From Candidatus Rokuibacteriota bacterium (GTDB lineage Bacteria; Methylomirabilota; Methylomirabilia; Rokubacteriales; CSP1-6), in contig JACQWB010000215.1 in assembly GCA_016209385.1 (NCBI GenBank), forward strand, positions 1 to 48,617: a stretch of 48,617 nt of DNA, read 5' to 3'. Position numbers and translations under genes: made by a program. Below, one piece after another: positions 18,028-31,600 of the stretch. Below the pieces are notes generated by a model. The model made no database searches. It was not told the origin of the DNA and saw only the letters and a program-made list of their open reading frames with translations. Numbering within the stretch: position 1 is the stretch's first letter; each line of letters begins with the position of its first letter.

Positions 18028-18030
18028 CCC

Positions 18031-19104
18031 TTACTCCTCGCCCGCGATGAAGCGCTCGAGCTGGGCGCGCGCGACCTCGTCGGGCCACTGCTCCGGCGGT
18101 GACTTCATCAGGTACGCGGACGGCGCGAGCAGCGCGCCCTTCAGCCCCCGGTCCAGGGCCAGCTTGCAGCAGCGGATCGCGTCGATGACGACGCCGGCGG
18201 AGTTGGGAGAGTCCCAGACCTCCAGCTTGAGCTCCAGGTTGACGGGCAGGTCGCCGAAGCCCCGGCCCTCCAGGCGGATGTACGCCCACTTCCGGTCGGC
18301 GAGCCAGGGGACGTAGTCGCTCGGGCCGATGTGGACCACCTCGGGCGGGAGAGGGTGGGCGAGCTGGGAGGTTACGGCGTCGGTCTTCGAGGTCTTCTTG
18401 GACGTCAGGCGCTGGCGCTCGAGCATGTTCAGGAAGTCCGTGTTCCCCCCCACGTTGAGCTGGCTCGTGCGCTCGAGAGCGACGCCCCGGGACATGAAGA
18501 GGCGCGTCAGGATGCGGTGGACGATGGTGGCGCCGAGCTGGGACTTGGCGTCGTCACCCACCACCGGCAGCCCCCGCTCCTCGAACCGGCGCCTCCAGTA
18601 CGCCTCCCGCGCGATGAAGACCGGGATGCAGTTCACGAAGCCACAGCCGGCGTCCAGCACCTGCTCGACGTACCACTTCGTGGCCATCTCGCTGCCCACC
18701 GGCAAAAAGTTGACCACGACGTGGGTGTCCGTGTCCTTCAGGATCCCCACGATATCGGCGGTGGAGCCTGGCGCCTTCTGGATCACCTGCGAGAGGTACT
18801 GGCCCAGCCCGTCGTGCGTCATCCCGCGGTGGACCGGCACATTCAGCGGCGGGACGTCGAAGAACTTGGTCGTGTTGTTCGGCGGGGTGTAGATGGCTTC
18901 TGCCAGGTCGCGGCCGACCTTCCGGGCGTCGATATCGAAGGCGGCGGAGAATTCGATCTCCCCTACGTGATACGGGCCGAGGCGGGGATGCATAAGCCCG
19001 GGGATGAAGCCTTCGTCGGGCGCGTTCCGGTAGTAGTGGACTCCCTGGACCAGGGCGGAGGCGCAGTTGCCGACACCCACGATGGCTACACGAACGGTCT
19101 CCAC
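18031..19104 (-). CDS. ino1: myo-inositol-1-phosphate synthase
   Basis: A 357-residue enzyme of the MIPS family, converting glucose-6-phosphate to inositol-1-phosphate with NAD. Motifs: [20 protein letters not shown] (Rossmann), [65 protein letters not shown] (core) and [21 protein letters not shown] chose GTG 19104, because AAAGGAGG lies 7 nt upstream; the longer ATG 19155 adds residues that do not fit the family. The 87-nt upstream gap contains a TAGAAT box (19160-19165), so it may also have its own promoter. It supplies inositol-P in the lipid head-group gene run. Confidence 0.92.
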
Positions 19105-19191
19105 GCTGCTGCCTCCTTTCTCGGGGATCAGGCGGGAAAAGCGAACCGCAAGCACTGGGATTCTAGCATACCGAGCCAGGAAGCCCCGGCC

Positions 19192-20166
19192 TCACGCCGC
19201 GAGCTCCGACGTGAGGGAGCTCCGCAGGAACGCCAGGACGATGAGCCCTGCCGTGACCCAGGTCAGTTCCCGGAGGCGGCGGACCAGGGCAAAGGAGAGG
19301 CCAAGACCGGCACCGAGACCGAGGGCCGCGAACACGGCCACGTTGCCTCCCTCCAGCGCGCCCAGCCCGGCCGGGATCAGGAACGCGGCGAACTTGACGG
19401 CTGCGACGAAGGCTTCGATGACGAAGGCCGTGGTCAGCGAGATCGGGATCCCGAGGAAGTAGAGGATCAGGTACGCCTCCAGGCTGCCGAGGATCCAGCC
19501 CAGGAAATGGCACAGGAGCGAGACGCAGAGCCGTCCGCGGCGTTCCCGGTAGAATGCGGCCAGGGCGCGGTCGAGGCCGTGCAGCTTGTCCGCGTGGCGC
19601 TCGCCCCAGGCCAGCCCGAGCCCTGTCAGGAGCTTGAGCCCGCCACCGAAGATGCCGCGGCGCTGCACGATGACGAAGCCTCCCAGGGCGAGCGTCTCGA
19701 TCACGAGCAGCCCTGTCATCCCGTGGAGGAACGCCGAGGGGAGGGAGAAGAGCACCCACGCCAGCCCTAGGCCCAGGACGAGGAAGCAGCCCTGGGCGAG
19801 CGTGATCGTCGTCTTGTCGACGATTACCGAGGCCAGGCCCTCTTCGAATGGCACCCGGGGGCGAAGGAGGTAGGCCTTCACCGGCTCGCCTCCCACGGAC
19901 GCGGTCGGCGTGGCGACGTTGAACGCTTCGCCCGCCAGGCGCACCGGGTAGAGCGTGAGGAAGGAGGCCCGGTCGCGGTGGAACGCGAACCGCCAGCCGA
20001 GCGTGTCGAGGACCGTGACGACGCCGAACGGGAAGACCAGCACCACGAGCAGCCGCCACGAGAGCGTACGGATAGAGGTCAGGAGCATGTCGGGCCCGAC
20101 CTCGACGATGAGGTAACCGACGAAGGCCGCACCGAGCGCGAGGAGCGCCAGCCGGACCGTCTTCAT
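19192..20166 (-). CDS. YbhN/LPG-synthase-TM family flippase-like membrane protein
   Basis: A 324-residue protein with about eight hydrophobic helices of the YbhN/UPF0104/HpnL type: FNVATPTASVGGEPVKAYLL after helix 3, LASVIVDKTTITLAQGCFLV, FVIEAFVAAVKFAAFLIPAG and LGALEGGNVAVFAALGL. Members include the flippase part of lysyl-PG synthases and HpnL of hopanoid clusters. It starts at ATG 20166, overlapping the stop of the CDP-alcohol phosphotransferase (ATGA). The location suggests it moves or translocates the lipid made by the preceding enzymes. Confidence 0.82.
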   Translation of the reverse strand: MKTVRLALLALGAAFVGYLIVEVGPDMLLTSIRTLSWRLLVVLVFPFGVVTVLDTLGWRFAFHRDRASFLTLYPVRLAGEAFNVATPTASVGGEPVKAYLLRPRVPFEEGLASVIVDKTTITLAQGCFLVLGLGLAWVLFSLPSAFLHGMTGLLVIETLALGGFVIVQRRGIFGGGLKLLTGLGLAWGERHADKLHGLDRALAAFYRERRGRLCVSLLCHFLGWILGSLEAYLILYFLGIPISLTTAFVIEAFVAAVKFAAFLIPAGLGALEGGNVAVFAALGLGAGLGLSFALVRRLRELTWVTAGLIVLAFLRSSLTSELAA

Positions 20167-21338
20167 CGGGCGAGCCGCTTCCACCGGGCCAGGCAGGTGA
20201 GCCAGTACGCCTGCGAACCCAGGGCGAGCACGCCGACGAGGTAGGTCAGGGCCCACGGAGCCTTCCAGAGCAAGAGGATGAAGGAGATCAGGACGAGGTA
20301 AAAGGGGTCGCGGTTCCCCAACCGGACGAGTGCGCGCCCCAGACGCTCGGGCGGACGCATTCGGGGGAGGATCAGGTTGGCGAAGAGGGCGCTCATGAAG
20401 ATCCCGCAGGCCGCCAGGGCCCCGCCCGCGAGCATGAGCGTCCCTCCGATCCGGCTTGCGGTCACGGCGATCCCGAGGACTAGGAGCGCGTGCGTGACCG
20501 TGTCCGCGGAAAGGTCGAGCCAGCGGCCGAGGGCCGACTCCTGGAAAGTCAGCCGGGCGATCTCGCCGTCCGCGTGGTCGACCACGACGCCCGTCAGGTA
20601 GCAGAGCAGACCGAGGAGCGCGGACGCGGGCGTGGCGGACCAGAACTGCCAGGCGGCCGCCAGCCCGAGTGCAAGGCTCACCAGGCTGACGAGGTTGGGG
20701 GTGACCGGAAACCTCACGAGGAGTCGGGTGAGCCAGCGCGAGCAGCGGCGATTGATCAGGCGATCCATGAGGCTATCCGCCTCTGTGCCGAGGCTCCGGT
20801 AGAGCGCGGCCTCGGCCTCGCGCCGGCTCCCGCTATCCGTCACGGGAACGAAGTAGCCGCCTCCGGCGATCAGCGACACCCTGTCGCTCCGGAGCCGGAG
20901 CTCCAGCTCCTCGGCGATCGGAGCCCCCGCCACCAGCCGGTCCCGGAACAGCTGGGCGTCCGTGCCTGACATCACCATCACCGGAGCGGGGCTCCCTTTG
21001 GACTCCTCGAGCGCTGCCGTGATTCCGCGCTGGGCGGCGTCGCGGAGCTTCCTGAGGCTTCCCGCGTCCATGACGGTGTGGGCCGGGAGCAGGAGCACGG
21101 CGCCGGACCCGAGCGCTCGATCCTCCAGCGCGAACACGGCTGCGGACAGGCGGGGGTGGCGCCGGATCTGGGAGACGAGGGATTCGTCGGCGAGGCCGCG
21201 CGGGAGCCCGATCTCGCCGACGCCGACGTGAACGGCCGTCAGGAGCAGCCGCAGGAGCACGCTCCGGCCGGCCACGGCGCAGGAAACCCACTGCCGGCTA
21301 GCGGCGTCCGGGAGATAGATCACGGCGGCAAGGCTCAT
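20163..21338 (-). CDS. DIPPS-like CDP-alcohol phosphotransferase with N-terminal degenerate NTase-like domain
   Basis: A 391-residue protein. Residues about 1-185 resemble a nucleotidyltransferase fold but lack the GxGxRLxPLT loop. Residues about 190-391 are a CDP-alcohol phosphotransferase with several TM helices and the complete signature D-x2-DG-x2-AR-x8-G-x3-D-x3-D (Asp254 to Asp279). The linker MDRLINRRCSRWLTRLLVR, then PVTPN, is the form seen in di-myo-inositol-phosphate-phosphate synthases and their bifunctional IPCT-DIPPS relatives. It would couple a CDP/CMP-activated head group to an alcohol acceptor in the membrane. The ATG overlaps the NTase stop by 4 nt. The acceptor is unknown; see findings. 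Confidence 0.83.
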   Translation of the reverse strand: MSLAAVIYLPDAASRQWVSCAVAGRSVLLRLLLTAVHVGVGEIGLPRGLADESLVSQIRRHPRLSAAVFALEDRALGSGAVLLLPAHTVMDAGSLRKLRDAAQRGITAALEESKGSPAPVMVMSGTDAQLFRDRLVAGAPIAEELELRLRSDRVSLIAGGGYFVPVTDSGSRREAEAALYRSLGTEADSLMDRLINRRCSRWLTRLLVRFPVTPNLVSLVSLALGLAAAWQFWSATPASALLGLLCYLTGVVVDHADGEIARLTFQESALGRWLDLSADTVTHALLVLGIAVTASRIGGTLMLAGGALAACGIFMSALFANLILPRMRPPERLGRALVRLGNRDPFYLVLISFILLLWKAPWALTYLVGVLALGSQAYWLTCLARWKRLAR

Positions 21339-22072
21339 CGGGCCGTTGCCTCGATCCTCGGGAGGACCTCGCGCTCGGCGCGCCGCAGATCCTCCGGGAA
21401 GTCGACCTCGGTCCATGCGAGCCCGGTCACGTCCGCCCAGCCGACCTCGACCCGCCGCAGGAGCTGGTCCAGGGCGTCCTCGTACTCGATCCCGTCACCC
21501 GCCGCGCGCCGGACCTCCTCAACGCAGGCTTGGAGCGTTTCGCGGTGGGACCCCGCGCACTTGAAGAACCCGACTCCTTCGCCCACGACGTCGTGGGGCG
21601 GCGGGGTGATCTTCTTTCCCATCGCGACGACCCGCGGGCCGCGCGCGTACAGCTTCACCTCCTCGCCCGTCTCGGTGAAGGCCCGGTCCAGGAGGAGGGC
21701 GCTCGGCGCGGGCGCGTGGATCAGGCGTCGCAGGAGCTCCACGGGAAAGAGCACGTCGGCGTCCAAGATCAGGAGGTCGCCCCGAAGCGCCTCGAGCGCC
21801 GACCAGAGGGAGAGGATCGAGCCCTTGGTGTAGTCCGGGTTCTCGACGCAGCGCACGCCGAGGGTTCCGGCCCGCGAAGCGACCCGCTCCCGGATCTGCT
21901 CCTTGCAGTGACCGACGACCACCAGCGCTTCCCTGAACCCCACCGCCTCGAGCGCGTCGAGCATGCGCTCGAGGAGCGACCGCCCGCCCACGGGCAGGAG
22001 GCACTTGGGCCGGCCGTCGGTCAGGGGCGCGAGCCGCTGTCCCACCCCGGCGGCGAGAATAACGGCCTTCAT
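21335..22072 (-). CDS. Nucleotidyltransferase (inositol-P or phosphonate cytidylyltransferase type)
   Basis: A 245-residue sugar-nucleotidyltransferase-fold enzyme with intact loop LAAGVGQRLAPLTDGRPKCL at the N-terminus, ENPDYTKGSILSLWSALEAL (LicC/IPCT/PntC type) and metal-binding LILDADVLF. Its neighbours on both sides (AEP aminotransferase upstream, DIPPS-like enzyme downstream) overlap it by 4 nt each, so it probably activates the head group used by the latter. CTP:inositol-1-phosphate and CTP:2-aminoethylphosphonate are both plausible, since ino1 lies downstream and a second NTase is fused to PepM. Confidence 0.85.
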   Translation of the reverse strand: MKAVILAAGVGQRLAPLTDGRPKCLLPVGGRSLLERMLDALEAVGFREALVVVGHCKEQIRERVASRAGTLGVRCVENPDYTKGSILSLWSALEALRGDLLILDADVLFPVELLRRLIHAPAPSALLLDRAFTETGEEVKLYARGPRVVAMGKKITPPPHDVVGEGVGFFKCAGSHRETLQACVEEVRRAAGDGIEYEDALDQLLRRVEVGWADVTGLAWTEVDFPEDLRRAEREVLPRIEATAR

Positions 22073-23154
22073 CGTGCGGACAGGACGGCTTCCAGCGCGG
22101 TCAGGAACTCGCGGTACTCCTCCTGGGAGACGTCTCCCATGTTGGCCACGCGGAAGATCTTGGGTGCGAGCGCCCCCTGGCCGGCGTAGATCACGAAGCC
22201 GCGGGCCTTGAGCTGGTCATGGAGCCGCGCGTAGGAGAGTCCGGCGGGGAGCTCCAGCGCGGTGATCGTGTTGCTGCGCACCGCCTCCCCCAGGAGAAAG
22301 GTGAGCTCCAGCCGGCGAAACCCGTCACGGAGGAGCGCTGCAGCCCGGCCGTAGCGGGTGATCCGGGCGGGAACGGTCTCTTCGAGCAGTTCGGCGAGCG
22401 CTTCGTCCAGCGCATAGCCCGCGTGAACCGCCGGTGTGAAGAGCGGTTCGCCTTTCTCCTGGGCCTGCCAGTTGCTCGGGAGCGAGAGATACACGGCCCG
22501 GGGCGGGATCGCGGCGATCCGCGCCATCTCCTCGTGACGCACGAGGACGAAGGCGAGACCCGGGACGCCCTGGATGCACTTGTTCGCGGTCCCGGCGCAC
22601 AGGTCCACGCCGGTGGCCCGGAGGTCCAGCGCCTCGCCGCCGAGGCCCGAGATCGAGTCCACGAGGACCGTCTTGTCGAACTTCATGCTGAGCCGCGCCA
22701 CCTCCGGGAGCGGGTTGATGAATCCCGTGGTCGTCTCGTGGTGGACCATCGCGACGACCTGAATCCCGGGGTCCGACCGGAGCGCGGCCTCCACGCGCGC
22801 CAGGTCAGGTGGCCGCGTCCACGCTCCGGCGATCTCGACGACCCGGATGCCGTGGAGCGCGGCCATCCGCGCGATCCGCTCTCCGTACACGCCGTTGACG
22901 ACCGCGAGCAGGGCGCGGTCCGGCTCGACCGAGGAGGTGACTGCCGCCTCCAGCGCCGCCGTGCCCGACCCGGTGACGAGCACAGCGGTGAATCCGCTCG
23001 GGGCGAAGGCGGCGCAGAGCCGGGAGCGGATCGAGGCCATCAGCCGGGCAAACTCGTCTTCGCGGTGGCAGATGTCCGGGCGGAGCAGCGCGTGCCGGAC
23101 GCGCTCGGAGATGTTCACCGGCCCGGGGTTGAGCAGGATCATCCGGCGCGGCAT
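22069..23154 (-). CDS. 2-aminoethylphosphonate:pyruvate aminotransferase-like
   Basis: A 361-residue class V aminotransferase (fold type I PLP). N-terminal ILLNPGPVNISERVRHALLR and HREDEFARLM are typical of PhnW; VTGSGTAALEAAVTS contacts PLP; VLVDSISGLGGEALDLRATG holds the PLP Asp; Lys in GTANKCIQGVPGLAFVL forms the Schiff base, exactly the PhnW version. Beside a phosphonopyruvate decarboxylase it most likely runs in the biosynthetic direction, making 2-aminoethylphosphonate from phosphonoacetaldehyde. It starts 2 nt after the ppd stop and overlaps the NTase start. Confidence 0.88.
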   Translation of the reverse strand: MPRRMILLNPGPVNISERVRHALLRPDICHREDEFARLMASIRSRLCAAFAPSGFTAVLVTGSGTAALEAAVTSSVEPDRALLAVVNGVYGERIARMAALHGIRVVEIAGAWTRPPDLARVEAALRSDPGIQVVAMVHHETTTGFINPLPEVARLSMKFDKTVLVDSISGLGGEALDLRATGVDLCAGTANKCIQGVPGLAFVLVRHEEMARIAAIPPRAVYLSLPSNWQAQEKGEPLFTPAVHAGYALDEALAELLEETVPARITRYGRAAALLRDGFRRLELTFLLGEAVRSNTITALELPAGLSYARLHDQLKARGFVIYAGQGALAPKIFRVANMGDVSQEEYREFLTALEAVLSAR

Positions 23155-23155
23155 C

Positions 23156-24304
23156 TCAGCTCGCTCCGAGGGACGCGCGGAAGCGGTCGCGGATGGCCTC
23201 AGGCGGGTACGGGATGCGCGGCGCGGGTTCCTCGTGCGCCGTCACTTTGAGCAGGATGAAGTGAGGCCCGGGCTCGGCCAAGGCTGCGCGCATCGCCAGC
23301 CCGATCTCGGTGGCGGTCGTCGCCGCTCTGCTCGTCCGGTATCCCGCCGCCGCAGCGAGCCGGTCGAGCCGGACCTCGCGCGACAGAGAGGCCTGGTTGC
23401 CGGTCGAGCCGTAGACCTCGTTGTCGAACACGACGTGGACGAAGTTCGGCGGCGCGAGCGCGCCCACCATCGGCAGGATCCCCAGGCTCATGAGCAAGTT
23501 GCCGTCCCCGTCGAAAATCACGGGCTTCACGCGGGGACGCGCCACGGCCAGGCCGAGGCCGATCGCGGCGGCCAGCCCCATCGAGCCGATCATGTAGAAG
23601 TTCTGCTGCCGGTCCGCCACCGCGTGCGACTCGCGGCAGATGTAGCCGTTGGCGTGGATGACCGGCTCCCCCGAGAGGCACCCGAGCGCCACGCGGAGGG
23701 CCTCGTAGCGGGAGAGGACGGGCACCAGCTCGGCCGGAGGCTCTGCGTGTGGCCGGCTGGCGCGCGGCGCTACCTTGACCTCCGCGCGACCGCCGGGAGC
23801 TTCGGTCGCCGCCCCGGCCTCGAGCACCCCGGGCGGAACGAGGACGGCTACCGGCTCCATGCGCTCGCCGGCCTCCCGAGTTGCCCAGACCAGGTCCGCC
23901 GCGATGGAGGTCGCCGACAGCGTGCGGTGACGGATCCCGAGGAGGTCCAGCAGCTGCGGCGTGATGGCGCCGGTGAGGAGGTGCTCGGGTGCGTCGACGC
24001 CCCGGTAGCCGCGCCAGCTCACGACGAGCAAGCTCGGCAGCTTGTACAGGAGCGCGAGGGACGCGAGAGCGTTGAGGCCGGTGCCGAGCCCCGAGTTCTG
24101 GAGCAGCACCACCGGCCGCTTGCCGCCGAGCCAGGCCCCGGCGGCGAGGCCGACGGCGACGTCCTCCCGGACGGCGGCGAGGTAAGGGAGGCGGGGGTGG
24201 TGCTCGAGGGCGTCCAGGACGCCCTCGATGAGGGAGCAGGGCACGCCGGCGAAGAAGTCGTGCCCGAGGCCCTCGAGCTGGGTCGCGAACTCTTTTCCGG
24301 TCAC
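23156..24304 (-). CDS. Phosphonopyruvate decarboxylase
   Basis: A 382-residue ThDP enzyme with both halves in one chain. The N-terminal PYR domain has FAGVPCSLIEGVLDALEHH, AAVREDVAVGLAAGAWLGGK (catalytic Glu) and LLQNSGLGTGLNALASLALL. The C-terminal PP domain has MIGSMGLAAAIGLGLAVARP and the ThDP-Mg motif GDGNLLMSLGILPMVG. It decarboxylates phosphonopyruvate to phosphonoacetaldehyde, making the unfavourable PEP mutase step irreversible. The start is GTG 24304 behind a GGGGGG run. A 9-bp hairpin separates it from the pepM fusion gene. Confidence 0.9.
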   Translation of the reverse strand: MTGKEFATQLEGLGHDFFAGVPCSLIEGVLDALEHHPRLPYLAAVREDVAVGLAAGAWLGGKRPVVLLQNSGLGTGLNALASLALLYKLPSLLVVSWRGYRGVDAPEHLLTGAITPQLLDLLGIRHRTLSATSIAADLVWATREAGERMEPVAVLVPPGVLEAGAATEAPGGRAEVKVAPRASRPHAEPPAELVPVLSRYEALRVALGCLSGEPVIHANGYICRESHAVADRQQNFYMIGSMGLAAAIGLGLAVARPRVKPVIFDGDGNLLMSLGILPMVGALAPPNFVHVVFDNEVYGSTGNQASLSREVRLDRLAAAAGYRTSRAATTATEIGLAMRAALAEPGPHFILLKVTAHEEPAPRIPYPPEAIRDRFRASLGAS

Positions 24305-24322
24305 GGGCCCCCCAAAAGAGTA

Positions 24323-24345
24323 ACACCCACCGTTGGGGTGGGTGT
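24323..24345 (-). terminator. Hairpin between pepM fusion and ppd
   Basis: A 9-bp perfect stem (ACACCCACC with GGTGGGTGT, 5-nt loop), followed in the direction of transcription by TACTCTTTTG. It looks like a weak or attenuating terminator, or an mRNA-processing or stability element, inside the operon. The U-run is short, so readthrough is expected. Confidence 0.5.
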
Positions 24346-24367
24346 CCGGGTCGTCAGCGGGCGCCCC

Positions 24368-26035
24368 CTAGCTCTTGACCTCGGCCCAGGCCCGCTGGAA
24401 GTCCTCGAAGGTGTCTACCTCAAGCCACCCCTTGTAGACATCCACACACGAGACGGGCTCGCCATCGTCCACCAGCCGCTGGAGCAGATCCGTCAACGAG
24501 GCCCGTTCGAGCGAGTCGGCTTCGTGGAACGTCCCCCGGTGTGCGGCGCGGAGGCGCGCCCAGAGGTCCCGGAGCCGGTGGCATCCTCGTTCGGAGAAGA
24601 GGGCCATCCCGATGAACTCCCCAGTGGCCTCCTCGGGCGGCAGCCACTGGCCGATCCGCACCACGGTGTCCTCGTCTTCCGAGGAGAGAAAGCGGTGCCG
24701 AGGCGCCGGCGGGTTTCGGGTGATCACCAGGTCCATGGGCTTGGACAGCGGCAGCAGCCGGTCGCGGTGATCCGGCCAGGAGCGGTCCACCGCGATCGCG
24801 ACGTCGGCCCTGGACCTGAGCAGCTTCTCGAGTACCGCCTGGTCGAAGATGATGTCCGAGTAGAGGAAGAGGAGGCGTCCCTGCAGCTCCGGTTCGGCCG
24901 CGAACAGCGAGTAGAGCTCGCCGGTCTCCTCGTAGCGGTCGTTGTCGTAATACCTGATCCCCGGGATCGTGACCTTCTCCTTGCGGTACCCCCGCACCAG
25001 GACCACGTCGTGGATCCCGCAGGCGCGAAGCGTCTCGAGCTGCCGGTCGAGGATGCTCCGGCCCTTGATCTCGAGCAGGCACTTGGGCCGGTCCTCGGTC
25101 AGGGGGAGGAGCGACTTGCCCGACCCGGCGGCGATGATGATGACCCGCACCTGGTCCGCGCCCGAGGGCAGGAACTCGGCCTCGTAGGCTTTGAACTCGG
25201 AGACCCCGACCAGCTGGTAGATCTCTTCCAGCGTCACGGTGTGCGGGGCCACGGCTTCCAGGTGACGGGTCCGCGCCAGGACGGCAAGCGTCTCCTGCAT
25301 GCCCTTCACGCTGCCCCTGAGGACCTGGTTGGCGAAGATCACGAGCTTCACGCCCGCGGCCTCGAGCTCGTCGAAGCCGACCGAGGGGTAGAGGGTGGGG
25401 ACCACCACGATCGGGATGCCCCGGTCCCACCGCCGCAAGAACTCCAGCACCTCCGCGGCCGTGGGGGCCTTGGAGTGGACGAGGATCATGTCGGCGCCGG
25501 CCTCGGCGTAGGCGTGGGCGCGCTTGAGGGCCTCTGCCATCCCCCACCCGGCGATCAGCGCTTCGGTCCGGGCGATGACGACGAAGTCGCGGTCGCGCTG
25601 CGCGCGCTTGGCCGCGCGGATCTTGCCCGCGTGTTCCTCCAGGGTGGCCAGCTCGCGACGCACCCCTGGGTACAGGCTGCAGCGCTTGGGGAAGACGTTG
25701 TCCTCGATCGAGATCCCCCCGATGCCCGCCTTCTCGTACTCCTCCACCGTCCGCATCACGTTGATCGCGTTGCCGTAACCGTTGTCGCAGTCGGCGATCA
25801 CCGGGATGGCGACGGCGTCGTTGATATATCGCGCGACTTCGAGGTTCTCGGTCATCGTGAGCAGGTTGACGTCGGGCATCGCCCGCTGGGCGGCGGCGAC
25901 GGTGAAGCTCGAGGACCAGACCACCGGGAACCCGGCGGCCTCGATGAGCTTGGCGCTGAGGGCGTCGTGGGCCCCCACCGCGGCCACGGTACCCGGCTGC
26001 CTCAAGAGCGCTCGGAGCCTGGCGGCTTTCGTCAT
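24368..26035 (-). CDS. PEP mutase-like / nucleotidyltransferase fusion
   Basis: A 555-residue two-domain protein. Residues 1-290 are the isocitrate-lyase/PEP-mutase barrel: metal site IPVIADCDNGYGNAINV, IARTEALIAGWGMAEALKRA, ADMILVHSKAP, VVVPTLYP. The hallmark PepM motif EDKx5NS is instead EDNVFPKRCS (111-120), part way toward methylisocitrate lyase. Residues 296-555 are an NTase (IIIAAGSGKSLLPLTEDRPK, LLFLYSDIIFD, WLEVDTFEDF), the PntC type that activates 2-aminoethylphosphonate with CTP. With ppd and the AEP aminotransferase it forms a full route PEP to CMP-AEP. In its own NTase loop Ser replaces the usual Arg (GxGxR). The ATG lies 1 nt after the mlaC stop. Confidence 0.85.
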   Translation of the reverse strand: MTKAARLRALLRQPGTVAAVGAHDALSAKLIEAAGFPVVWSSSFTVAAAQRAMPDVNLLTMTENLEVARYINDAVAIPVIADCDNGYGNAINVMRTVEEYEKAGIGGISIEDNVFPKRCSLYPGVRRELATLEEHAGKIRAAKRAQRDRDFVVIARTEALIAGWGMAEALKRAHAYAEAGADMILVHSKAPTAAEVLEFLRRWDRGIPIVVVPTLYPSVGFDELEAAGVKLVIFANQVLRGSVKGMQETLAVLARTRHLEAVAPHTVTLEEIYQLVGVSEFKAYEAEFLPSGADQVRVIIIAAGSGKSLLPLTEDRPKCLLEIKGRSILDRQLETLRACGIHDVVLVRGYRKEKVTIPGIRYYDNDRYEETGELYSLFAAEPELQGRLLFLYSDIIFDQAVLEKLLRSRADVAIAVDRSWPDHRDRLLPLSKPMDLVITRNPPAPRHRFLSSEDEDTVVRIGQWLPPEEATGEFIGMALFSERGCHRLRDLWARLRAAHRGTFHEADSLERASLTDLLQRLVDDGEPVSCVDVYKGWLEVDTFEDFQRAWAEVKS

Positions 26036-26036
26036 G

Positions 26037-26681
26037 TCAGCGTTTCGTCGCGGGCGCCTTGACCTTGGAGTCTTCCGCGCCGGCGAACTCCTCCTGCTTG
26101 GTCTTCAGCTTCTTCACCAGCTCCTGGTAGGACGAGGTCTGGATGATCTTGTTGAACTGGGTGCGGTAGTTGGAGACCAGGCTGACACCCTCAATCGAGA
26201 CGTCGTAGACGAGCCAGCGGTCCCCCCGGCGGAGGAGCCGGTAGTCGACCGGCACCTCGGTGCCCTGCGGCGTGGCGATCTTGGTCCGGACGGTCGCCAC
26301 GTCGCCATCGACCAGCTCCCCGACGTAGGCGATCTTCTCCCCGCCGTAGAGGTCGATCTTGGAGATGTACGCGCGCTCCAGCAGGTCCCCGAAAAGCCTG
26401 ACGAACTCCTCCCGTTCCCGGTCGGTCCGAGCCTGCCAGTGTCGGGCGAGGGAACGCTTCGCGGTCTCGGCGAAGTCGAAGATGTCGTTGGCCACCTTCC
26501 GGACCGCCGCGCGCCGGTCCTTCCCCTTGCTGTCTTCTTTGAGCGCCGGGTCCTCGAGGATCTTCACGACCTTGTCGATGGCACCCCTGAGCTGGTCCGT
26601 CGGAGCTCCCGCCGACGCCGGCACCGCCAGCAGGGCGAGGAGCCCGGCGAGCACGAGGCTCGGATACCGAGAATGCATCAT
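26037..26681 (-). CDS. MlaC/HpnM-family periplasmic lipid-binding protein
   Basis: A 214-residue Ttg2D/MlaC protein. Signal peptide MMHSRYPSLVLAGLLALLAV, PASAGA. The body has VRKVANDIFDFAETAKRSLA, EREEFVRLFGDLLERAYISK, VDYRLLRRGDRWLVYDVSIE and GVSLVSNYRTQFNKII, all typical. MlaC carries lipids across the periplasm; the HpnM subgroup occurs in hopanoid clusters. GGAGG lies 7 nt before ATG 26681; an ATG at 26714 is an unlikely extension. It follows mlaD by 34 nt and precedes the pepM fusion by 1 nt. Confidence 0.88.
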   Translation of the reverse strand: MMHSRYPSLVLAGLLALLAVPASAGAPTDQLRGAIDKVVKILEDPALKEDSKGKDRRAAVRKVANDIFDFAETAKRSLARHWQARTDREREEFVRLFGDLLERAYISKIDLYGGEKIAYVGELVDGDVATVRTKIATPQGTEVPVDYRLLRRGDRWLVYDVSIEGVSLVSNYRTQFNKIIQTSSYQELVKKLKTKQEEFAGAEDSKVKAPATKR

Positions 26682-26715
26682 CGGCGGACCTCCAGTATGG
26701 CGAGCGTCTGACACC

Positions 26716-27156
26716 TCACACTTTCCCGAAGATGTACTTGGAGAGCAGCTCCTCGAAATCCACCGGCGCCTCCACCTCGCGGAGGCGGCCGTTGGGCGGG
26801 ATGAGCCGATCCGAGCCGCCCGGGTTGATCCGCACGTACTTCTCGCCGATCAGCCCTTTGGTCTTGATGGAGACGATGGCGTCCTCCTGGAGTTTGACCT
26901 CGGAGCGGATCCGCATCGTGACCCGCGCCTGGTAGTCCGCCAGGGTGATGGCCTCGACGCGCCCGACCTCCACGCCGGCGATCTCCACGGCGGAGCCGGG
27001 TTTGAGGCCGCCGACGGATGGGAAATCGGCGGTGACCACGTATCCAGGTCCTCCCAGCAGCTCGACTCGCCCCAGTTTAATCGAAAGGTACGCCAAAGCC
27101 AAGATGCCGAGGATGACGAAGACCCCGACCCCGAACTCCAGCGCTGCTCGGCGCAT
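26716..27156 (-). CDS. MlaD-family MCE-domain protein
   Basis: A 146-residue single-MCE protein: N-terminal TM anchor (LEFGVGVFVILGILALAYLS), then the MCE barrel with YVVTADFPSVGGLKPGSAVE and VEIAGVEVGRVEAITL, then GLIGEKYVRINPGG. MlaD forms a hexameric ring on the MlaFE transporter that shuttles lipids between the inner membrane and MlaC. ATG 27156 lies 54 nt after the mlaF stop. Confidence 0.92.
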   Translation of the reverse strand: MRRAALEFGVGVFVILGILALAYLSIKLGRVELLGGPGYVVTADFPSVGGLKPGSAVEIAGVEVGRVEAITLADYQARVTMRIRSEVKLQEDAIVSIKTKGLIGEKYVRINPGGSDRLIPPNGRLREVEAPVDFEELLSKYIFGKV

Positions 27157-27210
27157 CTTCAGCTCTCCCCACTCCGCGACTTCGGCGGTTCCGACAGGCG
27201 GTTCGGGGGT

Positions 27211-27957
27211 TCAGGTGGGCCGGATGGGGCCCTCAACCTCCCCCCGGATGAACTGCTGGACCACCGGGTTCTGCGAGGCCTGAATCGCCTCCGGCGGTCC
27301 GGCCTCGACGATGACGCCGGCGTGGAGCATGGCCACGCGTTGGGCGATCTGGAAGATCTCGGGGATCTCGTGGCTCACCATCACCGCCGTGAAGCGGAAC
27401 TTCCGATGGAGATCGAGGATCAGGTGGTGGATGGCGTTCACGAGCACCGGATCGAGCCCAGTCGTGGGCTCGTCGAAGAAGACGATCTCGGGCTCCGTGA
27501 CCAGCGCCCGCGCGATGGCGACGCGCTTTTTCATCCCGCCCGAGATCTCGGCGGGAAATTTGTGGCCCATCCCGGCCAGCCCGACCTGCGCCAGCTTCTC
27601 CTCCACCCGTCCCGTCACCTCCGCGGCCGGCAGACGTCGCTTCTCGCGGAGCGGGAACGCCACGTTGTCGAAGACCGTCATGGAGTCGAAGAGCGCCCCG
27701 CCCTGGAAGACGACGCCGTAGCGCTGCCGGATCCCGTCAAGCGCGCGCGGGCGGAGGCGCGTGATATCGGTCCCGTCCACCAGGACGCGTCCCGCGTCCG
27801 GTCGGAGCAGCCCCAGGAGGTGCTTGAGGAACACCGTCTTCCCTCCGCCGCTCCGGCCGATGACGATCATGACCTCGCCGGTCGGCACTTCCAGCGAGAG
27901 GCCCTGGAGGACCGCCTGGCCGTCGAAGGATTTGTAGAGGTCCTCGGCGCGTATCAC
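27211..27957 (-). CDS. MlaF-family ABC ATPase
   Basis: A 248-residue ATPase with Walker A GRSGGGKTVFLKHLLGLL, Q-loop VVFQGGALFDSMTVFDNVAF, ABC signature EISGGMKKRVAIARAL, Walker B IVFFDEPTTGLDPV and H-loop VMVSHEIPE. The EISGGMKKR signature and GALFDSMTV are typical of the MlaF branch. GTG 27957 overlaps the mlaE stop as GTGA, so the two are coupled. Confidence 0.93.
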   Translation of the reverse strand: MIRAEDLYKSFDGQAVLQGLSLEVPTGEVMIVIGRSGGGKTVFLKHLLGLLRPDAGRVLVDGTDITRLRPRALDGIRQRYGVVFQGGALFDSMTVFDNVAFPLREKRRLPAAEVTGRVEEKLAQVGLAGMGHKFPAEISGGMKKRVAIARALVTEPEIVFFDEPTTGLDPVLVNAIHHLILDLHRKFRFTAVMVSHEIPEIFQIAQRVAMLHAGVIVEAGPPEAIQASQNPVVQQFIRGEVEGPIRPT

Positions 27958-28742
27958 GGGAGCACGGAGCCCATGAAATAGTCCCAGACGAGGATCAGGA
28001 CCGAGGAGAGCACGACCGCCTCGGTCGTGGCGCGCGACACGCCCTCGGCGCCGTGGCCCGCGTAGTATCCCTTGTAGGCGCAGACCCAGGTCACGAGGAC
28101 GCCGAAGCTCAGCGACTTCCAGAAGCCGGTCATGATGTCGGCCAGGTCCACGAAGGTCTGCATCTCGCCGAAGTAGGTCCCGGACGAGAGGCCCAAGAGC
28201 TTCACGCCGACGAGATAGCCGCCGAAGATGCCGACCACGTCGAAGAGGGCGGTCATGAGCGGAAAGGTGATGAGGCCGGCCACGAGCGCCGGGACGACCA
28301 GGTAGCGGAACGGGTTCAGGGCCATCACGGTGAGGGCGTCGATCTGCTCGGAAATCCGCATGATCCCGATCTCGGCCGTCAGCGCGGAGCCCGCTCGTCC
28401 CGTCACCATGAGGGCTGAGAGCACCGGGCCGAGCTCCCGGATAAGCGAGAGCGCGACCGCCGGGCCGAGAAAGGCCTCCGAGCCGAAGCGCGTGAGCGTG
28501 AGGAATACCTGGAGTCCCAGCACCATCCCGGTGAAGGCGCCGGTGAGGATGATGACCGAGAGCGAGCGGAACCCGATGAAGTGGATCCGTTGCAGCACCT
28601 GGTAGCCCTTGAAGGGAGGGATGAAGGTCCACGTGATCGCTTGAGCGAGGAAGAGCCCGAAGCGGCCCAGCGACTGCACTCCCTCCAGCGAGACCTGGCC
28701 GACGGACTGGACGGAAGTCAGGAGGGCGGCGTAGGCGCTCAT
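27954..28742 (-). CDS. MlaE-family ABC permease
   Basis: A 262-residue permease with five or six TM helices. Signatures: FIGFRSLSVIILTGAFTGMV, LIRELGPVLSALMVTGRAGS, ALTAEIGIMRISEQIDALTV, MALNPFRYLVVPALVAGLI. ATG 28742 overlaps the SHC stop (ATGA), directly tying a hopene cyclase to a lipid-trafficking permease. A much longer in-frame upstream extension lies within the SHC gene and is not real. Confidence 0.93.
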   Translation of the reverse strand: MSAYAALLTSVQSVGQVSLEGVQSLGRFGLFLAQAITWTFIPPFKGYQVLQRIHFIGFRSLSVIILTGAFTGMVLGLQVFLTLTRFGSEAFLGPAVALSLIRELGPVLSALMVTGRAGSALTAEIGIMRISEQIDALTVMALNPFRYLVVPALVAGLITFPLMTALFDVVGIFGGYLVGVKLLGLSSGTYFGEMQTFVDLADIMTGFWKSLSFGVLVTWVCAYKGYYAGHGAEGVSRATTEAVVLSSVLILVWDYFMGSVLP

Positions 28743-30679
28743 CGGTTGCTTTGGCGATAGACCCCCAATGCCCACAAGGGGAAGTACTTCGCGTAATAGT
28801 GGTACTTGAGGTACAAGACTCGGGGGAAGCCAGTGCCGTTCCAGTAGCGATCCTCCCACGAGCCGTCGTCCCGCTGGCTCTCGAGCAGGTACCGCATGCC
28901 CCGCTCGACGCGCGCGCCCGCGGTGCGACCGCCGGCAAACAGGCTCAGCAGCGCCCAGGCTGTGTGGCTCGGCGTCGACGGTCCCACCCCGGCCAGGGAG
29001 CGGTCCGCGTAGCTCTCGCAGGTCTCGCCCCAGCCGCCGTCCGGGTTCTGCCTGCTCTCGATCCAATCGAGCGCCTTCTGGACGTACCCCTGCGAGAGGT
29101 CTTCCCCGATCGCCCGCAGTCCCCGGAGCACCGACCAGGTGCCGTAGATGTAGTTCACGCCCCAGCGCCCGTACCACGGGCCGCTCGGGTGCTGGGTGCG
29201 CCGGAGGAAGCGGATCGCTCTCGCCGCCCCGGGGAAGTCGGGACCATAGCCGAGCGTGCCCAGGGCTTCGAGCCCGCGCCCGGTGAGGTCTTCGGTGGAG
29301 GGGTCGAGGAGCGCCCCGTGGTCGGCGAAGGGGATGTGGTTGAGGATGAGCCGGTTGTTGTCAGCATCGAAGGACCCCCACCCGCCGTCGGTGCCCTGCA
29401 TCCCGAGCACCCAGTGGAGCCCTCGCTTGAGGGCAAAGCGCTGTTTGTCCGGGTCGAGGCCCCGGATCTTCTGGAGCGCCACCATGGCCATCCCCGTGTC
29501 GTCAAGATCCGGATAGAAGTCGTTGCCGTACTGAAACGGCCAACCTCCGGGCATGACGTGCGGACGCTTCACCCGCCAGTCGCCGGGCACCAGCACCTGC
29601 TTACCGAGGAGCCACTCCCCGGCCTGGAGGAGCGCCGGGTGATCCGCGGGCAGGCCGGACTCGATCAGCGCGTTGACGGCGAGCGCGGTATCCCAGACCG
29701 GTGAGGGGCAAGGCGTGTAGTGAATCGCCTCCGCCGTCTCGACGGCGAGCGCCTCGATTTCCTTGAGCTGGTTTTGGATCAGCGGGTGGTCGTTCGGATA
29801 CCCAAGGCAGCGCAGGGCGAGGACCGCGTTGGCCATGGCAGGGTAAATGCCGCCAAGCCCGCCGGGGACGGCGAGCCGCGGCTCCAACCACTGGCGGGCC
29901 GCCTCGATGGCCTGGGCCCGCCGCGGCCGCGGACTCCACCGCTCCCAGGCCTTGAGCGCGTCGTCCGCGGTGATGAAGAAGTTCTTCCAGAACCACGTCT
30001 TGAGCGAGAACGGGCGGGGCACCCGGGGGAACCGGAGCCGCGCCCGCTCCCTCGGGACGGGCCAGAGCTCGTCGAGCCTCAGGTCGGGCGGGAGCCGCTT
30101 CACCGGCCGCTTGTCCATCAGGATGAGGAGCGGAACGATCACCGTCCGGGACCAGTAGGAGACCTCGTAGAGGTTGAAGGACCACCACCGCGGCAGCAGC
30201 TTGATCTCCTGCGGCACCAGCATGATCTCCACCGGCATGGCCGGCACCCCCGACCACGGATATTCGCCGAACAGCGCCAGCGTGATCTTGGTGAAGACCT
30301 TGGCCCTGACCGGACCGCCCAGCTCCCTGATCAACCGACGCGCCGAGACCATCGCCGGATCGTCGACAGGAACGCGAGCCAGCTTCAGAGCGAAATACGC
30401 TTTAATGGTCGCTGACAGATTGGCCTGGCCGCCTTCGAAGAGGTTCCAACCGCCGTCGGGGAGCTGGCGGGAACGCAAGTACGCGACGGCCTTGGCCTCT
30501 CGCTCCCGATCCACCTGGTCCAGCAGGTGGCGGAGGAGGAGGTACTCGGTGGTGATGGTGGTGTCGGTCTCGAGCTCGCCGACCCAGTGGCCGTCGCCCG
30601 CCTGGGTGCCGAGGAGAAAGGCCCGGGCCCGCTCGATGGCCGCGTCAACGGTTGAACGGGACAGTGTCAAGGTGAGCAC
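28739..30679 (-). CDS. shc: Squalene-hopene cyclase
   Basis: A 646-residue class II triterpene cyclase that folds squalene to hopene/hopanol at the inner membrane. The catalytic motif DLDDT (Asp391-Asp393-Asp394-Thr395) is present. Several QW repeats are visible: GDGHWVGELETDT, PDGGWNLFEGGQAN, GTDGGWGSFDADNN, PDGGWGETCESY, DDGSWED. Also WYGRWGVNYIYGTWSVLRGL. I start at GTG 30679, where the N-terminal helix matches the family and AGGA lies 9 nt upstream; the open frame continues to 30985, but that part overlaps the divergent gene and reads as noise. Confidence 0.94.
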   Translation of the reverse strand: MLTLTLSRSTVDAAIERARAFLLGTQAGDGHWVGELETDTTITTEYLLLRHLLDQVDREREAKAVAYLRSRQLPDGGWNLFEGGQANLSATIKAYFALKLARVPVDDPAMVSARRLIRELGGPVRAKVFTKITLALFGEYPWSGVPAMPVEIMLVPQEIKLLPRWWSFNLYEVSYWSRTVIVPLLILMDKRPVKRLPPDLRLDELWPVPRERARLRFPRVPRPFSLKTWFWKNFFITADDALKAWERWSPRPRRAQAIEAARQWLEPRLAVPGGLGGIYPAMANAVLALRCLGYPNDHPLIQNQLKEIEALAVETAEAIHYTPCPSPVWDTALAVNALIESGLPADHPALLQAGEWLLGKQVLVPGDWRVKRPHVMPGGWPFQYGNDFYPDLDDTGMAMVALQKIRGLDPDKQRFALKRGLHWVLGMQGTDGGWGSFDADNNRLILNHIPFADHGALLDPSTEDLTGRGLEALGTLGYGPDFPGAARAIRFLRRTQHPSGPWYGRWGVNYIYGTWSVLRGLRAIGEDLSQGYVQKALDWIESRQNPDGGWGETCESYADRSLAGVGPSTPSHTAWALLSLFAGGRTAGARVERGMRYLLESQRDDGSWEDRYWNGTGFPRVLYLKYHYYAKYFPLWALGVYRQSNR

Positions 30680-30730
30680 GACGCTCGATCCTATCACAGC
30701 GGATCGGAAATGGAAATGTGAACAATTAGC

Positions 30731-30759
30731 TTGAAAAATCAGCGGGGTTTCGGTAATGT
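30731..30759 (+). promoter_or_regulatory. Strong sigma70-type promoter TTGAAA-N17-TAATGT
   Basis: TTGAAA (30731-30736) and TAATGT (30754-30759) with the optimal 17-nt spacer, in an AT-richer patch between the divergent shc and cruF-like genes. A TTG in the -35 box could be mistaken for a start codon of the cruF-like gene. Drives the rightward hopanoid operon. Confidence 0.65.
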
Positions 30760-30784
30760 CCTGTCGGGTTCGCTGGGGCACCTG

Positions 30785-31600
30785 ATGACTGATCTTCCCT
30801 ATCTCCTGCTCGCGACCGTGCTCCTCAGACCCTACGTCTTTGCGTTCCTGGCTGCTCATCTGTTCGTGGCGGGCCGGGAGCTTGGCGGCCGGCGCACCCT
30901 TGCCTTCACCGGGTGGGCGTGGGCGGTGGCCTTTGCCGCTGAGTTCGCCTCCACGCGGACGGGGGTCCCGTTCGGGCTCTACCACTATACAGGCGCGAGC
31001 CGGGGGCAGGAGCTGTACCTGGCCAACGTGCCGTTCATGGACTCCCTGTCGTTCGGCTTCCTGGCCTACGCCTCCTTCGCCCTGGCCCGGCTCGTCCTCG
31101 ACCGGGCCCGGGGCGTCGGGGTCGTGTTTCTCTCCGGCCTGCTGATGATGCTGCTCGATGTGGTCATCGATCCGCTCGCGGTCCGCGGGGATCGCTGGTT
31201 CCTGGGAGCGATCTTCTACTACCCCGAGGGGGGGGCGTACTTCGGCGTTCCGCTGTCGAACTTCCTTGGATGGGCCGTCGTGGGGTGGGTCATCGTCGGG
31301 GCGTATTCCTGGGTCTGCGGAAGCGAGGCTCCACCGCGACGGCGCGACCTCCTCGGCGGGATCGCGCTCTACTATGCCGTTCTGGTCTTCAACTTAGCTG
31401 TCACCTGGTGGATCGGCGAGCTACTGTTGCTGAGCGCAGGGGTGTTGCTCCACGCGGCCGGGGGAATGCTGCTCTGGCTCTGGCGGACCTTTGTCGCAGA
31501 GGGCAACGTCTCGGGCGTTTCGAGCGCGGGCTTCGCCCGCGCAACCCTAGGGGGGAGGCTTCGGAAGGGGGGCGAAGCCCCCCTCCGAGGATTATCGTGA
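30785..31600 (+). CDS. CruF-like carotenoid-biosynthesis (DUF422) membrane protein
   Basis: A 271-residue protein with seven or so TM helices. Conserved blocks: AFAAEFASTRTGVPFGLYHY, GQELYLANVPFMDSLSFGFL, LLMMLLDVVIDPLAVRGDRW and IFYYPEGGAYFGVPLSNFLG, with acidic and aromatic residues typical of CruF/bisanhydrobacterioruberin hydratase relatives. Role here unclear: possibly hydration of a C30 apocarotenoid or a hopanoid-related polyene. ATG 30785 fits the promoter; a TTG at 30731 is inside the -35 box. The last 30 codons cover two large hairpins, and the stop overlaps the hpnH GTG. Confidence 0.8.
   Translation: MTDLPYLLLATVLLRPYVFAFLAAHLFVAGRELGGRRTLAFTGWAWAVAFAAEFASTRTGVPFGLYHYTGASRGQELYLANVPFMDSLSFGFLAYASFALARLVLDRARGVGVVFLSGLLMMLLDVVIDPLAVRGDRWFLGAIFYYPEGGAYFGVPLSNFLGWAVVGWVIVGAYSWVCGSEAPPRRRDLLGGIALYYAVLVFNLAVTWWIGELLLLSAGVLLHAAGGMLLWLWRTFVAEGNVSGVSSAGFARATLGGRLRKGGEAPLRGLS
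31524..31542. repeat. GC hairpin GCGCGGGC-TTC-GCCCGCGC
   Basis: Perfect 8-bp stem with a 3-nt loop, in the 3' end of the cruF-like gene and just upstream of a second, larger hairpin. Confidence 0.55.
31561..31588 (+). promoter_or_regulatory. Large hairpin next to hpnH start
   Basis: A stem of TCGGA and GGGGGGC pairing with GCCCCCC and TCCGA (12 bp, one bulged A, GAA loop), ending 8 nt before the GTG of hpnH and partly covering its CCGAGG ribosome-binding sequence. Could regulate hpnH translation or protect processed mRNA. Confidence 0.45.

Follow-up and report, generated by a model that had tools for sequence, protein, structure and literature searches.

The closest described relatives of the enzyme analysed here are the PEP mutases (PepM or Ppm; M. 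edulis, 1pym; Streptomyces platensis, 5unc), in which PEP binds with Mg, a gating loop closes, and the phosphoryl group leaves and is recaptured at carbon 3 to give phosphonopyruvate. Their gating loop carries the hallmark EDKx5NS. In the M. edulis numbering used throughout, EDK is E114-D115-K116, the lysine of FPK is K120, and N122-S123 follow; K120 and N122 are catalytic in that enzyme, and altering them harms activity. At the same place in the loop the methylisocitrate lyases have a cysteine: Cys123 has a role in PrpB, and the structure 1xg3 is titled as a C123S mutant.

Fusions of a PEP mutase barrel to a PF12804 nucleotidyltransferase (Ppm-PntC), standing beside Ppd, AEPT and a second nucleotidyltransferase, are described by Rice et al. 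2019 (PMC6697681). In that paper 1,485 of 27,716 PF13714 sequences were kept in the Ppm inventory by the motif EDKXXXXXNS, which shows PF13714 to be a broad family, and 22 fusions without the motif were set aside as presumed non-Ppm. A 2025 actinomycete screen (PMC12723261) required a perfect EDKX5NS match, and a 2026 preprint likewise demands 'the correct sequence motif'. Both the fusion and its pathway are already known (PMC6697681); what is new here is a loop of the form EDN..CS, which lies outside the present defining motif and cut-off. The literature searched, whose scope took in few subscription papers, held no description of an EDN..CS mutase.

The gene lies on the reverse strand of a 48,617-nucleotide stretch of rokubacterial DNA (the window), and the features that bear on it are as follows.

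20163..21416, reverse strand: CDP-alcohol phosphatidyltransferase, candidate acceptor-side enzyme (PF01066, 37.1 bits)
21335..22072, reverse strand: NTPT2, a second, stand-alone nucleotidyltransferase (PF12804, 75.7 bits)
22069..23154, reverse strand: AEPT/PhnW, 2-aminoethylphosphonate transaminase type (TIGR03301, 345 bits, cut-off 360.8; PDB 1m32)
23156..24304, reverse strand: Ppd, phosphonopyruvate decarboxylase-type TPP enzyme (TIGR03297, 285.5 bits, cut-off 312.5; PDB 9iz3)
24368..26035, reverse strand: fusion of a PEP-mutase-type barrel and a C-terminal nucleotidyltransferase, 555 aa
24371..25153, reverse strand: fused nucleotidyltransferase domain, aa 295-555 (PF12804; nearest solved structure LicC, 1jyk)
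25166..26035, reverse strand: barrel domain, aa 1-290 (best solved relatives the PEP mutases 5unc and 1pym)
25676..25705, reverse strand: gating-loop motif EDNVFPKRCS, aa 111-120 (E111-S120)
26037..26714, reverse strand: MlaC/HpnM-like, start of the conserved upstream hopanoid/Mla block (PF05494, synteny)

Downstream of the fusion, on the same strand, follow Ppd, AEPT, the second nucleotidyltransferase, the CDP-alcohol phosphatidyltransferase, an HpnL-like flippase, inositol-phosphate synthase and HpnN. Upstream lie HpnM/MlaC and squalene-hopene cyclase, with open reading frames between them that we take, from sequence and synteny, to be MlaD, MlaF and MlaE. The block that flanks the phosphonate genes in this way (15286-30985: squalene-hopene cyclase, MlaE/F/D-like, HpnM, HpnL-like, INO1 and HpnN) is syntenic across Rokubacteria, and these surroundings suggest that hopanoid transport is linked to a phosphono- or inositol-lipid. 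An open frame of 1071 codons runs antisense to pepM, Ppd and AEPT (22847-26062, forward strand); we regard it as a high-GC artefact.

Both halves of the fusion are recognised by their Pfam families, the barrel by PF13714 (PEP_mutase; aa 7-251, 199.6 bits, cut-off 31.5) and the C-terminal domain by PF12804 (NTP_transf_3; aa 298-418, 52.2 bits, cut-off 27). Compared with solved structures the latter is closest to LicC (1jyk, E 1.2e-14), with PntC (6pd1) fourth at E 1e-7, and by its family and these nearest relatives it is a predicted PntC/LicC-type nucleotidyltransferase. The NCBIfam models rank the fusion as PEP mutase (TIGR02320, 276.3 bits) ahead of phosphonopyruvate hydrolase (TIGR02321, 249 bits) and PrpB (184 bits), all three scores lying below the respective cut-offs of 319.55, 374.4 and 354.4 bits. 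An AlphaFold model built from a 41-row alignment of EDN fusions (mean pLDDT 90.5, pTM 0.57) has 5unc as its nearest neighbour (Z 40.0, rmsd 1.4, 288 residues aligned), followed by 1pym (Z 37.9) and phosphonopyruvate hydrolase (PPH; 37.7), and the methylisocitrate lyases are farther away (Z about 31-34). The sequence-only reading had proposed a PEP-mutase-type fusion with a hybrid EDN motif in an otherwise mutase-like barrel, and both parts of that proposal are borne out, the motif being read as EDNVFPKRCS at 25676-25705 on the reverse strand and the barrel having TIGR02320 as its top profile, 5unc and 1pym closest to its model, and its mutase-type residues in place.

Full-length fusions with the loop EDN-x-FPK-x-CSLYPG are present in 8 other genomes of the same family at 71-85% identity to the window, which brings the EDN..CS genomes of that family to 9; another 5 carry full-length EDK..NS fusions at 36-40% identity. 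Across the 290 barrel codons, differences from the nearest relative fall at third positions in 111 cases and at first and second positions in 24 and 15, so the barrel is under purifying selection. Because eight relatives carry the motif and substitutions follow this codon-position pattern, the motif is neither chance nor a sequencing error.

In the window N113, K117 and C119 correspond to K116, K120 and N122 of the M. edulis enzyme; the loop EDNVFPKRCS that stands in place of EDKx5NS therefore changes K116 to N and N122 to C, the latter being the residue of methylisocitrate lyases at this position, and keeps K120. The sequence-only reading had held that the catalytic Lys and Asn were both changed, which is right for N122 (and K116 is replaced as well) but not for K120, intact here and in all EDN barrels compared. 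That comparison covered non-redundant barrels sorted by their loops: 98 EDN, 43 EDK_NS, 8 EDK_TS (PPH-type) and 38 EDQ lyases. W44, D58, D85, E114, K120, R159, E161, H190, A238 and N239 are invariant in the EDN set (98/98 each) and common with EDK enzymes, and D87, S46 and S123, likewise common with EDK, are nearly so (94, 94 and 96 of 98). N116 and Y125 are specific to EDN barrels and found in every one of them. C122 occurs in 98/98 EDN barrels and 38/38 lyases, and 94/98 EDN barrels have R or K before it. Position 48 is Phe in 96/98 EDN and 8/8 EDK_TS barrels, whereas all 43 EDK_NS barrels have Leu; apart from positions 116 and 122 it is the only mutase-type active-site position at which the window departs. 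The lyases have Q116, C122, G123 and D161 (38/38 each) with H124 and E190 (37/38 each). A C86-C122 disulfide was considered as a group feature and dropped, since C86 is found in 90/98 EDN barrels but also in 3/43 EDK_NS barrels, including 5unc.

Set against the known enzymes, the EDN proteins thus share with PEP mutase the fold, the metal- and phosphate-site residues, K120, R159 and H190, as well as the fused nucleotidyltransferase and the Ppd and AEPT neighbours, but have EDN-x-FPK-x-CS-[FL]Y instead of EDKx5NS, F48, a position outside the EDK and PPH clade, and scores below the TIGR02320 cut-off. Phosphonopyruvate hydrolase (2dua, 2hrw) has the same fold, F48 and most active-site residues in common with them but differs in having EDK and T122 and in lying inside the EDK clade. 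PrpB (1mum, 3eoo) resembles them in its loop Cys preceded by R/K, and differs in CGH versus CS[FL]Y, E190 versus H190, D161 versus E161, and its separate place in the tree.

A scan of one genome per species with the pattern E-D-[KN]-x-F-P-K-x-C-S returned 111 stretches, which comprise 102 true barrels and 9 unrelated chance matches that were excluded (L050, L058, L083, L085, L091, L098, L117, L143 and L145). Although the pattern allowed either residue, 102/102 true barrels are EDN and none is EDK, so positions 116 and 122 change together. Family searches that were independent of the motif recovered EDN..CS, EDK..NS, EDK..TS, EDQ..CG and one EDS..NS loop, and neither EDN..NS nor EDK..CS. By record title the 102 barrels fall under 15 phylum labels, nine of which have five or more records: Planctomycetota (22), Myxococcota (15), Nitrospirota (14), Binatota (8), Acidobacteriota (8), Omnitrophota (7), Actinomycetota (6), Rokuibacteriota (6) and Pseudomonadota (5), with 5 records lacking an assignment. 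Nitrospinota, Chlamydiota, Nanobdellota, Campylobacterota, Peregrinibacteriota and Bacillota have a single record each, which may be binning errors. A sample from Planctomycetota gave 32 matches; of the 30 loci that were read, 18 were EDN, a share possibly inflated by eight genomes already known through their EDN loci and standing at 10/22 without them. Among the carriers in culture are Sorangium cellulosum (two strains), Minicystis rosea and Streptomyces sp. SID3343.

Several individual records deserve mention. An EDN fusion labelled Klebsiella pneumoniae (L094, a MAG) groups with Myxococcota and Pseudomonadota MAG sequences and is probably mislabelled through an error of binning or naming. 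The only archaeal-labelled case is a small Nanoarchaeota record of doubtful assignment with an EDN barrel and a split Ppd (L123/L302). The EDS..NS barrel (L222, EDSCFPKMNS) departs further at position 116 and keeps N122; its genome, G531, also holds two EDK..TS (PPH-type) loci and one EDKGFPKMNS barrel.

For the phylogenetic position we relied on a careful tree of 69 barrels (32 EDN, 20 EDK_NS, 3 EDK_TS and 14 lyases) drawn from a set of 112, with the motif columns omitted. It splits the EDN, EDK and PPH barrels from the 14 lyase rows with support 100/100 and holds EDK and PPH together at 100/99, with PPH nested within EDK. The EDN rows are basal to this EDK and PPH clade, as its sister or its stem, and the window does not fall inside the clade of characterised PEP mutases in this tree. 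A place well inside the methylisocitrate lyases, which the sequence-only reading had named as its refutation, is not what the tree shows. The best careful tree has the EDN barrels as a grade, although a single clade is not rejected (p-AU 0.404); a large quick tree also showed a grade, and constraining the EDN rows together there gave a higher likelihood (p-AU 0.853). We therefore dropped the EDN barrels as a proven clade. The proposal of an undescribed mutase clade with an altered gating loop remains the best-supported reading and extends well beyond one genome, but the clade itself is unproven and may be a stem grade.

Canonical mutases are missing from the genomes that carry EDN barrels. Among 95 genomes of the window's phylum, the EDN motif occurs in 9 and EDK..FPK..NS in 10, with no genome carrying both, which alone is weak evidence given that 0.95 would be expected by chance. 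Elsewhere the canonical motif was found in 0 of 40 EDN genomes. Because the FPK pattern misses canonical enzymes without FPK (for example EDKEGLKRNS), 36 of these 40 were also searched with TIGR02320: the best match always fell at the EDN place (227-313 bits), the next best reached at most 139 bits, and the cut-off was exceeded in none of the 36. The EDN protein is thus the only apparent mutase-type candidate in its genomes.

Gene context was compared for 36 EDN genes and 20 lyase genes from the same genomes, with flanks of up to 9.5 kb in either direction. Ppd was detected in 20/36 EDN versus 0/20 lyase neighbourhoods, AEPT in 13/36 versus 0/20, one or both in 21/36 versus 0/20 (Fisher p 5.5e-6), and the fused nucleotidyltransferase in 27/36 versus 0/20; these counts are lower bounds, as many stretches stop at contig ends, and the profiles, having been trained on EDN loci, are more likely to detect genes at such loci. 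Anywhere in the genome, Ppd is present in 36 of 40 EDN genomes. Neither Ppd nor AEPT is near the EDN gene in 15/36 neighbourhoods, 12 of them in genomes with Ppd elsewhere. The other 3 (Streptomyces SID3343, Humisphaera and Methylococcaceae) are without Ppd and have an AAT-family aminotransferase and an ATP-grasp ligase beside a stand-alone EDN barrel. This aminotransferase context was found in six genomes (at least 40% identity to two queries, or query source), not counting a seventh match at 28-29% (L123), and the ligase in five, the L071 stretch being cut at its end; neither gene occurs in the 20 lyase stretches. The gene set is that of the phosphonoalamide clusters (pnaABCD), in which PnaA transaminates phosphonopyruvate (PMC11867202). 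The best argument for the putative product of the EDN enzymes is that two unrelated downstream routes would each begin with phosphonopyruvate.

Within Rokubacteria, AEPT at 344 bits or more was found in 9/10 EDN genomes (one of the ten, G092, has a barrel that ends at a contig end before the motif), 5/5 EDK genomes and 4/10 genomes with Ppd but without PepM, which gives Fisher p 0.007 for PepM-bearing genomes versus none and 0.057 for EDN genomes alone. One rokubacterial genus includes a genome with EDN and AEPT (G007) and two with neither (G028, G091). In a Ppd tree, the EDN-, EDK- and no-PepM-linked proteins are mixed in one rokubacterial clade, as would follow if EDN and EDK enzymes could stand in for each other as suppliers; the same mixture shows Ppd persisting without either. 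Because ten rokubacterial hopanoid/Mla/INO1 clusters (L254, L255, L256, L257, L258, L259, L260, L263, L264 and L265) hold Ppd without PepM, it may have another job there, and we dropped Ppd adjacency as sufficient proof in this phylum. The adjacent ppd that the sequence-only reading took as support for a mutase does adjoin the fusion, but counts for less than was assumed. The persistence of Ppd without either enzyme is the main limit on our confidence in the PEP mutase reading. In three of the ten clusters (L254, L255 and L263) a second nucleotidyltransferase and a CDP-alcohol transferase are kept beside the PepM-less Ppd.

Taken together, the predicted fold, the pattern of residues, the place in the tree, the lack of a canonical mutase and the gene context favour an unrecognised 'EDN-Cys' subfamily of PEP mutases that feeds Ppd, AEPT and a fused PntC-like domain, a reading to which we assign a probability of roughly 0.8. 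Within it, the reaction catalysed, what N116 and C122 do and which compound is finally made are predictions. PEP would bind with Mg at D85/D87/E114 and the gating loop, with Asn116 and Cys122 in place of Lys116 and Asn122, would close; with otherwise ordinary PEP-mutase machinery (these Mg ligands, D58, K120, R159 and H190), the phosphoryl group would leave as in PEP mutase and be recaptured at carbon 3, yielding phosphonopyruvate. Ppd would decarboxylate this to phosphonoacetaldehyde and so pull an unfavourable equilibrium, AEPT would form 2-aminoethylphosphonate (AEP), and the fused domain, judging from known families, would activate AEP to CMP-AEP for transfer to a cell-surface acceptor. 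That acceptor is probably a lipid, given the hopanoid/Mla surroundings, and the CDP-alcohol-type transferase (20163-21416) may place AEP on it.

Several points speak against a mutase: the accepted motif is missing, the score lies below the TIGR02320 cut-off (as in 36/36 EDN genomes), N122 is lost, and position 48 has Phe as in PPH-type barrels. Because the EDN barrels lie outside the clade of characterised enzymes, phylogenetic bracketing does not force mutase activity, and both the 15/36 neighbourhoods without Ppd and AEPT and the 10 rokubacterial loci with Ppd but no PepM weigh on the same side. Some of these points would suit a different C-C or C-P reaction, in which the loop Cys would serve as acid/base, as it does in methylisocitrate lyases, and a Ppd-like enzyme would receive another 2-oxo acid: the Cys occupies the lyase position and follows R/K (94/98), EDN barrels fall outside the canonical clade, and ten rokubacterial Ppd clusters manage without PepM. 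We consider this quite unlikely, as the EDN barrels have H190 and E161 instead of the lyase E190 and D161 and lack CGH, AEP transaminase and a PntC/LicC-type domain co-occur with them, a second context has a PnaA-like aminotransferase, and the same Ppd lineage is partnered by canonical EDK mutases.

The remaining alternatives fare worse. That a C-C lyase of the methylisocitrate lyase family sits in a phosphonate operon by chance is scarcely credible and was rejected by tree, profiles and residues: apart from KRC in the loop and a prpB score of 184 bits (cut-off 354.4), the protein lacks lyase-specific residues (KRCSLY and H where K[KR]CGH and E190 are expected), EDN barrels are set apart from all 14 lyase rows at 100/100, and Ppd, AEPT or a nucleotidyltransferase (NTPT) is found in 0/20 lyase neighbourhoods. 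F48 and the 249 bits for TIGR02321 are compatible with a catabolic enzyme like phosphonopyruvate hydrolase, but that score falls short of 374.4, PPH rows have EDK and T122 where the window has N116 and C122 and nest within the EDK clade at a distance from EDN, and a hydrolase next to Ppd, AEPT and a cytidylyltransferase-type domain would presumably destroy the pathway's own substrate, making this a very improbable reading. Equally improbable is a decayed, inactive mutase domain retained for its fused nucleotidyltransferase; two residues of the diagnostic motif are indeed changed, but the residues are uniform over 98 sequences, the window's barrel is under purifying selection, stand-alone EDN barrels exist without the fused domain, and the genome has no other mutase.

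If the EDN barrels are the stem of the EDK and PPH clade, the loop Cys would be the older state and Asn122 derived. A tentative extension, which we hold to be rather doubtful, is that EDN-Cys enzymes keep the stem state of C-P bond formation, the mutase having arisen in a barrel with the lyase loop Cys. The loops could then form a series from EDQ..KRCG through EDN..KRCS to EDK..NS, plus EDK..TS in PPH; Asn122 would be a later refinement that the chemistry does not require, and in present-day EDN enzymes the thiol may take part in catalysis or a promiscuous second activity may persist. EDN enzymes offer a natural series for asking by what steps the loop of a C-C lyase turned into that of a C-P mutase.

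Should the EDN enzymes be mutases, EDKX5NS filters exclude a branch that the scan recovered from 102 species-level genomes with 15 different phylum labels. The cultured carriers make this mutase reading directly testable. One of them, Streptomyces sp. SID3343, has an EDN PEP mutase, an AAT-family aminotransferase, two ATP-grasp ligases and a MutE-like (methylaspartate mutase E) gene together at L294:3864-10370. With Humisphaera, Methylococcaceae and other EDN barrels beside an aminotransferase and ATP-grasp ligase(s), this locus resembles the phosphonoalamide clusters (PMC11867202); it differs from them in its EDN-type PepM and in the MutE-like gene between the ligases. It is possibly a new phosphonopeptide cluster of a kind that an EDKX5NS filter would overlook.
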